From Bulleidia extructa W1219 (GTDB lineage Bacteria > Bacillota_I > Bacilli_A > Erysipelotrichales > Erysipelotrichaceae): a stretch of 64,000 bases of DNA. The position numbers were made by a program, and so were the translations under genes. Of the stretch, positions 4,286 through 17,642 are shown piece after piece (the first letter of the stretch is position 1; every line of letters begins with the position of its first letter). A model generated the notes under the pieces. It was given only the letters and a program-made list of their open reading frames with translations, did no database searches and had not been told where the DNA came from. The DNA is taken from contig NZ_ADFR01000009.1 of the NCBI RefSeq assembly GCF_000177375.1, forward strand, positions 1 through 64,000, in the 5' to 3' direction.

Positions 4286-5772
4286 AAAAACCATTTCTTT
4301 TTTCTTGACGGATATCTTGTATTTTTTCATTTAATAAATGTATGAACTCCGGATTCATCAACTCAGGGATTGAAATCACTTCTATATCAGAAGAGACGTG
4401 ATCAACCGTACTCAAAATAAAATCGCCATGAAAGTTTTGTAATTCCACTTCATCTTGAAGCTCGATAATTTTCATATGAAAGGCAGATGTGTGAAGTATA
4501 TTTAAAAATAACTTCTTTTTAAATGAGTGTGCTTGTGACCAAAATCCGCAAACAATTGTATCGGATTGAATTTCCTGCACCGATGCCAAAAGCAACGTAA
4601 TTGTTGCAATAGCATCTTTTGGTAAAGTGGCTTGTAAAGTGTTTTCTGTAAAAGTATTTATAGAACCGGCAATTGAAAATAGTTTTGGAAATTTATGGAT
4701 AATAAGATCTGTACTCGGATTATAGCAATCGTATTCAAAGTTGAATTTTTGCATCGTCTTTTCTAGAAATGGAAATAATTCTTTTTCAAATTGTTTTGTG
4801 TTTTTGATTTTTACAATCGAATTTATATGATTTGTAAATTGATGAATGATCTCTAGCAGCAAAATGGGATTGCTGGATTCACGATATATATTCATCTGTC
4901 GAACAAAGGTACACCGACAACTGAGCAATGAGATAAATCATTTCTTCATCGGATAATTCCACATGGAAATGACGAGTTAGTGTTTTTAGATGTTCTTCCA
5001 GATAATGGCGAACTTCAGAGTTTTTAATTTTTTGCGCTGTACCTGCATTCAGAGAAGTAAACTGGTGAGCCTGCATTCTGAAAATGGCAATTTGCACAAA
5101 TAAAACGGCTCTTTGTAAGTCACTTTCTGTGATTTTTGTATGAGTTTCTTTAGCGGTTTTAAGAATGAAATTTCTGATTTTTTGTATGATAGATACTTGA
5201 GTTCTATCACTTAGATATTGATAAACTTCTGGCGATAAAGAGTAGACGGATATATCGTGATTCAGCATAGAACAAGTTAAATCCAACAAACAATGTCTAA
5301 TCCGCTTTTCACCGGACAAAATACAAAGACCTGTTTTTCTGTTTTTAGAAATAGTGATGTTATATTTTGAGAAAAATTGTTTGATGTGCTTTAAATCATC
5401 ATAAATACTAGGACGGGTAATATACAATTTCCTTTCTAACATGGAAATCGTCACTTTATGAAAACTGGTCAACAGAAGAAATGCAATAATATTCTGCCGT
5501 ATTTCAGAAGAGACTCGCGTGCTTTTGGTTACTTCGGTTTCACAAAAGTGATAACATTTTAAAATGTCTTCTTTCGTTCCATGTAAGCGAATTCCGATAC
5601 CTGGATTTTTCTGAATTTTTATTTTGTAATTATGAAATAGCGAAATGATTTCAGGCATGTTATTACGGACGGTTTTATTGGATAATTTTACCTTGTTTGA
5701 AATGATTTCATAGGTAAATGTCTCTGTTTCTGTTAGCATTGCAATAGCAATGGTATAAATATTAAGTGGCAT
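4278..5772 (-). pseudogene. PRD/BglG-type transcriptional regulator, frameshifted
   Basis: Two overlapping frames (4879-5772 and 4278-4928) together read as one PRD-containing regulator of about 500 residues. The first part has N-terminal helix-turn-helix domains (ISNKVKLSNKTVRNN, then a second at LERKLYITRPSIYDDL) and a first PRD ending in LSDEEMIYLIAQLSVYL. The second part continues the PRD region and a C-terminal EIIB-like segment. The break falls near 4880-4925. Loss of one AT unit in the ATATAT stretch at about 4885 would join the frames as DEYIYRESSNP. Such regulators are phosphorylated by the PTS and control a neighbouring sugar operon. This one is divergent from the PTS permease gene. 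Whether the frameshift is biological or a sequencing error cannot be told here. Confidence 0.7.
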
Positions 5773-13919: not shown

Positions 13920-14479
13920 TTATAAAATCTCTGCATATTTTCTGATTTCATCTTCAATGCCAAGAATCTTGCTGTATTTAATAAGATTTCTGATATTTTT
14001 ATCTTGATTCTTAAAATATCCGGTCATTGCATTAATAAATATCTGCTCATCAATTGATTTCCTTCCCAAAATAATATCACAGATACATCTTTCCATGTTA
14101 TAGCATTTAACAGAAGCACCAAGCGGTGTTTTTTTATTAATAGCTCCTAAATGAAAAAATCTCTCTTTATATAATGCACCTTGATGTTAGGAAATTTACG
14201 TTTGATATGCCCTGCATTATACCCTTGTGGAACACTGATATGAAAAACATTAGGTGTTCTGTCACTAAATCCAAGAAGATACAAAGCTGTATGAAAAGAG
14301 AAGACAACTTGCTCATTATTAAGTGATATAGCAGCAAAATCATCATCTACGGCATCTTTTTTCTTGTAGACGCCATTTTTAACTCTCTCCAGTTCACCTT
14401 TTTGGGCAAGTGAAGCTAAGACATGCCTTTTGATACCTATTCTTTCTGCCTGTTTATTTGTAATAATATTATTTTCCAA
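13920..14479 (-). pseudogene. AbiEi-family antitoxin, frameshifted and without AbiEii
   Basis: The first frame (14147-14479) has the AbiEi N-terminal winged-helix domain: TNKQAERIGIKRHVLASLA, then VKNGVYKK and FHTALYLLGFSDRTP. The second frame (13920 to about 14150) continues with LGAINKKTPLGASVKCYNME, RCICDIILGRK and DKNIRNLIKYSKILG, which is the family's C-terminal part. Adding one T to the T6 run at 14144-14149 would join them as RDFFHLGAIN. AbiEi proteins repress their own operon and neutralise the nucleotidyltransferase toxin AbiEii in an abortive-infection system. No AbiEii gene follows, so this is at best a solitary antitoxin. The start is a TTG without a clear ribosome binding site. 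Confidence 0.7.
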
Positions 14480-14576: not shown

Positions 14577-14609
14577 GGTAAGGAGATGGAGCGATAGCCA
14601 TCTCCTTAT
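14577..14609. terminator. Hairpin after the TIR gene
   Basis: AAGGAGATGG and CCATCTCCTT form a perfect 10-bp stem with an 8-base loop, just past the TIR stop codon. The T-rich tract lies on the plus-strand side, so its use as a terminator for the minus-strand operon is not certain. Confidence 0.5.
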
Positions 14610-14614
14610 TGTTT

Positions 14615-15193
14615 TTAATGTCTTTCTAGTGCAGCTCCATTTAGCCAGCTCTTTAGAGAAGCATATCTACTACTATCGCCTTGATCTATAACCCAGAACT
14701 CATAAGTACTCTTTCCACTTATTTTTTCATATTCTATGTATGGATAAAGACCTAAATATTCAAGACCTTTAAAAGTACTAGATTCTTCCATTACTGGCAG
14801 TATACATGATTTTCCATTTAACATGCCATCTGCTAACCCCAATTCCCATGGACACCATTTTGAATTAACAATATTTCTAGTGGCGATATAAGATAAGCCT
14901 TTACAATTAGATATTCTATTTTTAATAACATTAGCCGTCTTAGGCGATACATTATTTCTATCCAAATTTTTGTCATCTATCCAATCTACATATACAGAAT
15001 AACCTGCATTGTTAAATAAATCAATTAGTGTTAGTATCAGTTTTTTATCTAAAAAACTATGTGATATAAACAAGTCATATGATTCTTTTTTTGAAAAAAC
15101 CATGTAATTTTCATTTAAAATCCTTGTTTCCGATGCATTACTAATGTCTCTTTTTATAGATTCTCTTCTTAAAAATTCATTTGTTAAAATCAT
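14615..15193 (-). CDS. TIR-domain protein of a TIR-caspase immune operon
   Basis: A protein of 192 residues with a short N-terminal extension and a TIR domain from about residue 38. The TIR features are the first strand YDLFISHSFLDK, the box VYVDWIDD, and the catalytic-glutamate region SKWCPWELGLADG (Glu117). Bacterial TIR proteins with this glutamate cleave NAD+ or make cyclic ADP-ribose-type signals on phage infection. It is the last gene of the operon and follows the caspase-like gene by 11 bases. It has a strong AGGAGG. In type IV Thoeris, as I recall it, a TIR enzyme makes a nucleotide that switches on a caspase-like protease. This protein or the upstream ThsB-like one could supply the signal, or this one could be a second NAD-depleting effector. 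Confidence 0.8.
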   Translation of the reverse strand: MILTNEFLRRESIKRDISNASETRILNENYMVFSKKESYDLFISHSFLDKKLILTLIDLFNNAGYSVYVDWIDDKNLDRNNVSPKTANVIKNRISNCKGLSYIATRNIVNSKWCPWELGLADGMLNGKSCILPVMEESSTFKGLEYLGLYPYIEYEKISGKSTYEFWVIDQGDSSRYASLKSWLNGAALERH

Positions 15194-15204
15194 ATATATT
15201 CCTC

Positions 15205-16182
15205 CTAGAATCTTTTATCTTTTGACAATTTCCAATAATGCAATCCTAAAGGAGTCAACCTGCATGACTTACTATTCATTGCCGCAAAATACATATGTTC
15301 CTCATCGACTGGTTCAATCAAACCAACACTCTCATACAGTTGTAGTTCTTTAAATTTATTAATATTTTCATCTTTTGCATATGGTTCCTTAATTTCAATT
15401 TCATACTCTGGATTATTAGTAAATTCAAAAGATGGGTCTAAAGAATATTCACTATCAGGATTTTGAAAATAATCACTTAACTTCCTTAAAACTTCAATAG
15501 GAACTTTAGGTTTTATTTTTCTAATCGGAAGAAATCTGGATATATTTGTTTTAAAAAGAGGTCGTTGTTCCCATGCTCCCAACGATTGATCAACAAATGA
15601 ATATAAACTTGCTGGTGTGATATTTCCGCCAACATCAGCGGCTCCACCCAACAATCCCTGAATTAACAATTCAGTAAATACTCCATGGCCAGTAATTCCA
15701 TTTTCTACAGCGTATTGATCTCTACTGCTGGCAGTCATAATTGTCACACCTTCGCCTAATACTGTTTCATTTGATGAAATGACTCCCAACTCTCCAAATT
15801 TGCCAGAAAAACAGCAATCCAATATGACAACTTTGTTTTTACTTTTTGACTGTTTTAATAAAGCCAAGATATCCGACATTGATACTCCCATATCTCTGCC
15901 TTTAAAATCAGGTGTAACTATCTTCCCCGTAACTTCATCTGTTCCATGACCTGAAAAGTAAAACAATGAGATATCAGAATCACCTTCACAAAAAAGAGCA
16001 TTTAGCAGATCCAAAAGCTCATCCTTTGTCTGTATATTTGGAGCAAACTTAACTTCAAAATTCGGAGAGCCATCTCCATTTGTTTCAAGTAAGTTTTTTA
16101 TTTCTTCTGCATCATTTACACATCCATTTAAAGGGCAACTCGGATAATCATCAATACCAACAACAAGTGCTTTTCTACTCAT
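15205..16182 (-). CDS. Caspase-like (C14) protease of a TIR-caspase immune operon
   Basis: A 325-residue protein with an N-terminal caspase/metacaspase domain (about 1-215). The catalytic His79 is in FYFSGHG, and the nucleophile is in VVILDCCFSG (Cys124, or its neighbour Cys123). It begins KALVVGIDDYPSCPLNGCVN with DAEEI, the usual C14 opening. After the protease, residues 230-325 form a separate domain, ending in a winged-helix-like pattern with SCRLTPLGLHYWKL. This domain is a candidate sensor or ligand-binding module. The gene lies between two TIR genes in one operon. In TIR-caspase immunity the protease is silent until it binds the TIR-made nucleotide, then degrades host proteins and stops phage spread. 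This specific function is inferred from gene order. Confidence 0.8.
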   Translation of the reverse strand: MSRKALVVGIDDYPSCPLNGCVNDAEEIKNLLETNGDGSPNFEVKFAPNIQTKDELLDLLNALFCEGDSDISLFYFSGHGTDEVTGKIVTPDFKGRDMGVSMSDILALLKQSKSKNKVVILDCCFSGKFGELGVISSNETVLGEGVTIMTASSRDQYAVENGITGHGVFTELLIQGLLGGAADVGGNITPASLYSFVDQSLGAWEQRPLFKTNISRFLPIRKIKPKVPIEVLRKLSDYFQNPDSEYSLDPSFEFTNNPEYEIEIKEPYAKDENINKFKELQLYESVGLIEPVDEEHMYFAAMNSKSCRLTPLGLHYWKLSKDKRF

Positions 16183-16200
16183 CCTAAAACCTCTCTTTCA

Positions 16201-16578
16201 TTATATATTATCAATCCACTTTGAAATGTTTGACCATGTCCAATCCATTAGTCTAATATATCCGCATTCACTTGGAATGGTAACTCCAGAGTGACTATCA
16301 TTTCCGTATATTCCAACAATTGGAATATTTTCATCTTTTGCACACTTCATTTCCCAAATTTGTCCATCTGCATTTTTTGTGTTCTTTGTGACTATTGATA
16401 TCACACCGTCACAGCCTTTTATTCTTGTTCTACAATTTGTTTTCCACTGTGAATCCCATGGTTTTTTAACTGACATATCCACAAATTCAAAGGGGCTATT
16501 TTCATTTTTCGCTTGTCCTTTTAAAAAATCTCTTAAATGTTCATCCTCAATTGCAAAACTAATAAAAATTCTTTTCAT
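16201..16578 (-). CDS. ThsB-like TIR protein (DUF1863/MTH538 type)
   Basis: A single-domain protein of 125 residues. It starts KRIFISFAIEDEHLRDFL, then FEFVDMSVKKPWD, then TRIKGCDGVISIVTKNT and GQIWEMKCAKDENIPIVGI. This is the TIR-like DUF1863 family, which includes ThsB of Thoeris systems. Glu76 in IWEMKCA is at the position of the catalytic glutamate. ThsB proteins sense phage infection and convert NAD+ into a cyclic ADP-ribose isomer that activates the effector. Here the effector would be the adjacent caspase-like protease. AGGAGG overlaps the end of the regulator gene, and the caspase-like gene begins 18 bases downstream, so tight coupling is likely. Which of the two TIR proteins is the signal-maker needs testing. 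Confidence 0.75.
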   Translation of the reverse strand: MKRIFISFAIEDEHLRDFLKGQAKNENSPFEFVDMSVKKPWDSQWKTNCRTRIKGCDGVISIVTKNTKNADGQIWEMKCAKDENIPIVGIYGNDSHSGVTIPSECGYIRLMDWTWSNISKWIDNI

Positions 16579-16580
16579 AA

Positions 16581-16799
16581 TTATTTGACCTCCTTAATGT
16601 CATTAATTTCTATAATATCTTCAATATTACATTCTAAGGTGTTACAAATTCTAAGCAAAACATCTGTGGTAACATTTTGTCCATTCTTTATCTTATAAAA
16701 TGTACTTTTACTGATATTTGCCTTCTCCATCAATTCATTATTAGTCATATCCAAATCTATAAGTTTTTTAAACAACTTCTTATAACTGAAAGTTCTCAT
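16581..16799 (-). CDS. Xre-family repressor heading the TIR-caspase operon
   Basis: A 72-residue helix-turn-helix protein of the Cro/CI (Xre) type: FKKLIDLDMTNNELMEKANI, then SKSTFYKIKNGQNV, then LLRICNTLECNIEDI. It is a stand-alone DNA-binding domain similar to YozG/XRE small regulators. The ATG at 16799 was chosen because GGAGG lies just upstream. It sits at the head of the operon and abuts the ThsB-like gene, with the ribosome binding site of that gene overlapping its stop. It most likely autoregulates the operon. A dedicated repressor is not a standard part of Thoeris systems and may keep the protease pathway low in uninfected cells. Confidence 0.8.
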   Translation of the reverse strand: MRTFSYKKLFKKLIDLDMTNNELMEKANISKSTFYKIKNGQNVTTDVLLRICNTLECNIEDIIEINDIKEVK

Positions 16800-16896
16800 C
16801 CTTTTTCCTCCATTCATCAAAATATAGAGTAATAATATTATATCATATTTTTTCTGTTTTTACATCAATATATTCTCTTTTCCAATACTATCGTAT

Positions 16897-16934
16897 GTAA
16901 AAAGAGCCGGTGCAGTCCTAAGACCACACCGACC
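16897..16934 (-). terminator. Terminator at the end of the ICE transfer operon
   Basis: On the minus strand GTCGGTGTGGTC and GACTGCACCGGC form a stem with one mismatch pair and a 4-base TTAG loop, followed by CTCTTTTTAC. It lies directly after the SSB-like gene and separates the ICE operon from the TIR-caspase operon. Confidence 0.8.
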
Positions 16935-16940
16935 ATATAT

Positions 16941-17600
16941 TTATCTCTCAGCCTCTCTGTTTGCTTCTTTCTTTTCTTTAGGCTTTTCCTTATCTCCAGC
17001 CTGATATTTCTTGATAGCTTCAAGCACAGATTCTTTCTTTTCTTCCTGTCCTTTCATCTGCTCTTTTGCCTTTAACAATTTTGAAGAAAGTATCCTTACA
17101 CTACTATGTTCCTTTCCATTGTCGTCAATGGAAGTTCTGATTTGACCAAAGAGCTTCACAAAATCTCCCTGCTTAAAGTCCTTGGGAATATCACTCTTTT
17201 CTCCATAAGCGGAGCAATTATGATACACCTTATTACCCTCATCATCTTTGGATACTACGGAGAAATTTACCACCTTAAAGGCTTCTCCACTCTTATTTTC
17301 TCTTTCAATGACATCGACCTTGCCTACAATATTTCCGACAATATTGATAAGATTATCCTTTTCTTCCTGAACATAAGGCAGGTCTTTTATCTGTCCCTGT
17401 TCCCTTAAATCCTCAATCATATAGTCAAATTCCTCATGCAGTAAATTAAGGCTGTCATTATCCATATAGGCATCGTATAGCTTATCTAAAGCACTTTCAT
17501 CGTTGATACCTTTTTCCATGCTGATAACCGCCTTAACAAAGTTCTTGTGATTATCATTTACCATATCCTCAATTTTATCTCTCATTGTTTTGTAATCCAT
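16941..17600 (-). CDS. SSB-like ICE protein (OB-fold)
   Basis: A protein of 219 residues. The first 95 residues are helical and acidic. Residues about 100-170 resemble a single-strand-binding OB fold (IVGNIVGKVDVIERENKSGE, then FSVVSKDDEGNKVYHNCSAY). A charged, lysine-rich tail follows. The related small protein at 37899-38210 has the same INCAAYGEKAEKAKDFEKGD pattern, here NCSAYGEKSDIPKDFKQGD. It probably binds single-stranded DNA produced during ICE transfer or replication. The ATG at 17600 follows AGGAG. It is the last gene of the long minus-strand ICE operon, 42 bases after the giant helicase gene. The exact family name is uncertain. Confidence 0.65.
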   Translation of the reverse strand: MDYKTMRDKIEDMVNDNHKNFVKAVISMEKGINDESALDKLYDAYMDNDSLNLLHEEFDYMIEDLREQGQIKDLPYVQEEKDNLINIVGNIVGKVDVIERENKSGEAFKVVNFSVVSKDDEGNKVYHNCSAYGEKSDIPKDFKQGDFVKLFGQIRTSIDDNGKEHSSVRILSSKLLKAKEQMKGQEEKKESVLEAIKKYQAGDKEKPKEKKEANREAER

Positions 17601-17642
17601 ATTTTTATCTCCTTTCATGGTAAAAGGGAGCTTTTCGCTCCC

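Follow-up and report, generated by a model that had tools for sequence, protein, structure and literature searches.

In type IV Thoeris, as described in papers that cite Rousset et al. 2025 in Science (PMC12847820, PMC13373217), N7-cADPR produced by a TIR protein is the signal that switches on a caspase-like protease (PMC12847820). A split between sensing and signal-making has recently been described for two TIR proteins of type I Thoeris. In the ThsA-ThsB1-ThsB2 system of S. aureus, ThsB1 binds a phage capsid protein and recruits and activates ThsB2 (Roberts et al. 2025; PMC12578639); Phe6 and Glu81 of ThsB2 are required, while the catalytic residues of ThsB1 are dispensable (PMC12578639). 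In the S. equinus Thoeris, the active enzyme is ThsB1 (PMC12578639). We found no description of a two-TIR type IV system in the literature searched, which consisted of papers other than the defining one of Rousset et al. 2025.

We analysed a 64,000-nucleotide stretch of Bulleidia extructa W1219, a low-GC bacterium (the window is this whole stretch). Its minus strand carries, from 16820 down to 14615, a run of four open reading frames for an Xre regulator, a short ThsB-type TIR protein (TIR1), a caspase-like protease and a longer TIR protein (TIR2) (Table 1). The genes are separated by 2, 18 and 11 nt, and each is preceded by a purine-rich ribosome-binding site. An initial annotation had proposed this compact Xre/TIR/caspase/TIR operon, and the proposal holds: all four frames are present, profile searches matched HTH_26, ThsB_TIR (PF08937), Peptidase_C14 and TIR_2 each in the expected gene, and the catalytic residues placed then (Glu76 of TIR1, His79 and Cys124 of the protease, Glu117 of TIR2) are all conserved in homologues. 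The Xre start is likelier to be the ATG at 16799, behind a GGAGG and giving a protein of 72 aa, than the TTG. The T-run of the stem-loop beyond TIR2 is on its plus-strand side.

Table 1. Features of the TIR-caspase operon and its upstream flank, in window coordinates.
Feature	Position	Strand	Evidence or remark
Stem-loop of 13 bp just past the TIR2 stop codon, possible transcript end	14577..14610	unspecified	
TIR2, TIR_2 / ThsB1-type, Phe42/Glu117, proposed accessory phage sensor	14615..15193	-	PF13676 1.5e-7; 192 aa
Caspase-like C14 protease, His79/Cys124, proposed effector	15205..16182	-	PF00656 1e-20; 325 aa
TIR1, ThsB_TIR protein, Phe5/Glu76, proposed signal-maker	16201..16578	-	PF08937 4.2e-6; 125 aa
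Xre-type HTH_26 regulator	16581..16820	-	PF13443 E=1.9e-16; 79 aa from TTG
Candidate extended -10 element TGATATAAT (hexamer TATAAT), operon promoter	16837..16842	-	sequence reading; function inferred
Terminator-like hairpin, end of the preceding backbone gene	16905..16934	-	
Backbone gene of the conjugative element, before xre	16941..17618	-	71% identical to the L160 counterpart, 52% to the L194 counterpart

The pairing of TIR1 with the caspase is far beyond chance and recurs in dozens of plasmids and genomes. A TIR1 homologue adjoins 40 of the 43 plasmid caspases of the window-caspase family, and a TIR1-type TIR accompanies all 13 close relatives from viral contigs. Among the 80 genomic loci closest by similarity to the window caspase, at least 66 have a TIR1-type gene (cluster 0 or 1) that shares the strand of the caspase and lies no more than 2.5 kb from it; as the profiles miss some short TIRs, the true number may be higher. 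The residues expected of such a pair are strongly conserved. Phe5 and Glu76 of TIR1 are invariant in 43 sequences, and the TIR1 model (pLDDT 86.5) superimposes on a B. cereus TIR (8fz9) with a TM score of 0.74. In an alignment of 91 caspase homologues, His79 is kept in all and Cys124 in 90; the caspase model (pLDDT 93.8) has MALT1 and caspases as its structural matches. The protease also has a C-terminal domain, spanning about residues 205-325, which was not identified by Foldseek among the matches, those listed being explained by the protease domain. With TIR and caspase genes adjacent in one operon, the His/Cys dyad present and the TIR catalytic glutamate in place, the window operon, which like type IV systems lies on a mobile element, has the type IV Thoeris layout as judged by gene pair and residues. 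It departs from that layout by its second TIR, which belongs to another family, and by the Xre gene that heads it.

The closest relative of the caspase, 72% identical, is from Streptococcus (L014). Within the host's own order a single other caspase was seen (G643), and near copies in the host's family amount to one TIR1 fragment, 67% identical, at a contig end of G151. In L014 an additional 187-aa gene (4993-5556), matching no Pfam or PADLOC model, lies 39 nt upstream of TIR1. TIR1-caspase pairs were also found in L029, L031 and L033, contigs whose labels name an archaeon (Methanosarcinales), Patescibacteria and Kerfeldbacteria. On a Salmonella IncR plasmid (L009:3989-4937) TIR1 is intact and the adjoining caspase frame is shortened; a closely similar TIR1, with no full caspase among the genes listed, is present in eight more records from Salmonella, E. 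coli and Klebsiella. Chitinophaga and its kin (L047, L050, L053, L055, L058, L064, L092) have a caspase without TIR1; the next gene encodes a TIR-like protein that includes a membrane segment, and small repeat-containing and other conserved proteins are often present as well; this is a different caspase system.

The second TIR is not a recent duplicate of the first, as the two barely align. By sequence, TIR2 matches the PADLOC ThsB1 model at 3e-51 and PDB entry 8btn_B at 2.6e-39, and Phe42 and Glu117 are invariant in eight aligned relatives. Clustering of the TIR genes that surround the caspase gave four main groups. A gene of the TIR2 cluster occurs in 8 of the 80 genomic loci, a gene of another TIR_2-type cluster in 8 more, and 17 of the 80 have at least two TIR genes, although these counts are not unbiased frequencies, the loci having been picked by caspase similarity. 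A TIR1-type gene accompanies the TIR2-family gene in seven of the eight loci, and also in L102; in the eighth, L062, the TIR1 frame is broken. The TIR2-family gene may follow the caspase (L052, L060, L090) or precede it (L024, L034, L068), with gaps of -44 to 52 nt. The initial annotation had asked for homologous operons in the same order. The core order of TIR1, caspase and TIR2 is found again in L060, in L090 and on the E. faecalis plasmid pAT40b-a, where TIR2 is 57.5% identical to that of the window and lies 45 nt from the caspase, so that homologous operons do exist for this core; the four-gene order with Xre was not seen again. The suggested system of type IV Thoeris kind with two different TIRs is supported, and the two-TIR form is a recurrent minority of TIR1-caspase loci.

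TIR2 is not caspase-specific. Only 1 of the best 21 plasmid matches to TIR2 has a caspase of the window family, and neither of the two relatives found in viral contigs has a caspase. Other relatives lie beside a SIR2 ThsA (Moraxella, Sinorhizobium), TPR-S proteins (Pediococcus, Acinetobacter) or a PDC-M50A membrane protein (viral contig L100). ThsB_TIR proteins like TIR1 make up 5 of the 10 neighbours scanned in the TIR2 loci lacking a caspase; at L108 and L110 the neighbours scanned gave no TIR match. In a tree of 28 TIR2-family proteins, which has long branches and modest support and whose details are unsure, the caspase-linked members need six label changes, a single clade of them is rejected (AU p = 2e-8), and the TPR-S-linked Pediococcus protein falls inside the supported group of the window TIR2. 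As its relatives occur with other effectors, TIR2 probably does not determine the nature of the signal.

What, then, might TIR2 do? The initial annotation had left it as a signal-maker, a sensor or a second effector. The staphylococcal system also has two dissimilar TIR proteins in one operon, and by likeness to that pair we favour the sensor. Like TIR1, S. aureus ThsB2 carries a Phe in its N-terminal part and a Glu in the region of residues 76-81; for TIR2, the matching models are those of ThsB1. The window operon thus holds two dissimilar TIRs, one of them ThsB1-like. The systems differ in that S. aureus ThsB1 (41.8 kDa) is larger than TIR2 and in that the staphylococcal effector is a SIR2 ThsA rather than a caspase-like protease. 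No ThsA (SIR2-SLOG) was found in the operon or in the genome, which at 97.9% completeness makes the absence less than absolute, and a type I Thoeris with a distant ThsA was rejected on this ground. Since the genome also yielded no TIR_2 protein other than TIR2, the caspase is the likely effector of TIR2. We infer from the staphylococcal comparison that the signal comes from TIR1 and that TIR2 acts as the sensor, and we give about even chances to TIR2 acting mainly as a sensor or activator of TIR1. TIR2 retains Phe42 and Glu117 and may be catalytic, and because the active enzyme of S. equinus is ThsB1, the roles of the two TIRs may be the reverse of those given here.

The same residues are kept in all eight aligned relatives, and two TIR1-type genes stand beside one caspase in several loci (L022, L042 and L091); both facts speak for a second signal-maker. 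Both TIRs of the window might make signal independently in response to different phage triggers, feeding one caspase, so that TIR2 would widen the range of phages detected. However, the relatives of TIR2 occur beside effectors whose activating signals should differ (ThsA as against caspase), the caspase-linked TIR2s do not form one clade, and TIR2 is rarely alone with a caspase. We regard this explanation as rather unlikely. Far less probable is that TIR2 is an unrelated neighbour brought beside the pair by cargo exchange in a conjugative element. The locus is indeed a probable cargo site with gene exchange, and in L062, L063 and L083 the TIR2-like gene is 0.5-2.2 kb distant, but the 11-nt gap, the ribosome-binding site of TIR2 itself, the shared order on pAT40b-a, the close spacing before or after the caspase in the six genomic loci named above and the lack of a ThsA as a partner all speak against this reading. 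Equally improbable is a second effector, an NAD+ hydrolase adding to cell death: TIR domains with a conserved glutamate are able to deplete NAD+ (PMC12847820), but the named models nearest to TIR2 are those of ThsB1, whose place is upstream of the effector, and relatives of TIR2 stand with complete effectors of different types.

With TIR2 taken as an accessory sensor, we consider it probable that the locus is a type IV-like Thoeris operon that protects against phages by abortive infection, and the TIR1-caspase signalling at its core is very likely. Upon infection, TIR1 would turn NAD+ into a cyclic ADP-ribose signal. This signal, which is N7-cADPR in published type IV systems, would activate the caspase-like protease, presumably via the C-terminal domain, and the active protease would degrade cell proteins and halt the phage. 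TIR2 would most likely detect a phage component and recruit or activate TIR1, as S. aureus ThsB1 does with ThsB2. Against this reading, most type IV loci do without a TIR2, and in these TIR1 presumably senses the phage alone.

The Xre regulator has a different distribution. The initial annotation had viewed it as a dedicated repressor, which we reject: no adjacent Xre homologue was found in other caspase loci, the regulators upstream of these loci show no consistent type, and close relatives of the window Xre precede restriction-modification (RM) and PARIS-like genes, the family heading many unrelated defence operons. Relatives with 82-89% identity along most of their length come from S. agalactiae (L160) and Leptotrichia. 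In the former the xre relative is followed after 0-1 nt by a cytosine methyltransferase and then an enzyme of the HaeIII family; in the latter, PARIS-like genes for an AriA-like ATPase and a DUF4435 protein begin 0-1 nt behind it. Conservation at the DNA level extends through xre as far as the next gene's GGAGG, beyond which the sequences diverge. Of the genes tested behind Xre relatives, 27 of 30 match PADLOC families at 1e-8, as against 3 of 10 control genes upstream (Fisher p 6e-4), a comparison that is rough because the second gene was used for L170 and L192, some PADLOC models are generic and the controls were nearby long ORFs. The families include methyltransferases of types I, II, III and IIG, HamA, AriA, MzaB, DrmD, BrxA and others, and Hachiman, PARIS, BREX and DISARM are among the systems represented. 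The window Xre is thus probably a generic defence-operon regulator rather than a part of Thoeris, and its relatives are possibly a general family of such regulators in Bacillota. It would likely act as an autoregulator of the operon, by repression. The controller (C) proteins of RM systems and RptR are likewise small DNA-binding proteins at the start of defence operons, RptR being from Gammaproteobacteria and mainly found with type I RM (PMC12255303); the window Xre differs in being an HTH_26 protein whose Bacillota relatives head RM, Hachiman, PARIS, BREX, DISARM and Thoeris operons alike. LexA-like Peptidase_S24 regulators lie directly upstream of two other type IV-like operons (L026:4971-5612, L033:3626-4300), hinting at DNA-damage control there.

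The surroundings of the operon are those of a conjugative element, with a MobA/MobL relaxase, a TraG/VirB4-like ATPase, TrbL and a topoisomerase. The backbone gene before xre has counterparts that precede the S. agalactiae Xre-HaeIII operon (L160) and an Xre-methyltransferase operon (L194). Hence three elements have the same backbone gene and Xre, followed by differing cargo (Thoeris, HaeIII-type RM or cytosine methyltransferases). L160, L193 and L194 have in common a AGTTCGAGA element and TGNTATAAT upstream of xre, and TGNTATAAT likewise lies upstream of the window xre, at the candidate extended -10. The shared backbone gene and Xre before different cargo suggest a site at which defence cargo is exchanged while the promoter and Xre in front of it are conserved. 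The gene after TIR2 (14147-14479) specifies an AbiEi-type antitoxin (PADLOC AbiEi 3.5e-30) of 110 aa; the family models are longer.

In summary, the locus is a recurrent two-TIR variant of the known TIR-caspase kind with a borrowed regulator. The ThsB1/ThsB2 split in type I Thoeris is recent knowledge, and a similar pair stands here with a caspase effector. We tentatively suggest, at somewhat less than even odds, that TIR2-family proteins are portable phage sensors, which activate whatever ThsB_TIR cyclase is their neighbour and so serve Thoeris-like systems whose messengers and effectors differ (caspase, SIR2, TPR-S, membrane protein). If so, phage sensing and signal chemistry would evolve independently, and type IV Thoeris would have a two-TIR relay form. 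As relatives of TIR2 are common to several effectors, the interchangeability of sensors between signalling chemistries is directly testable. The locus also suggests that a conjugative element has a site for exchangeable defence cargo, and its Xre is a candidate for a regulator that serves Bacillota defence operons in general.
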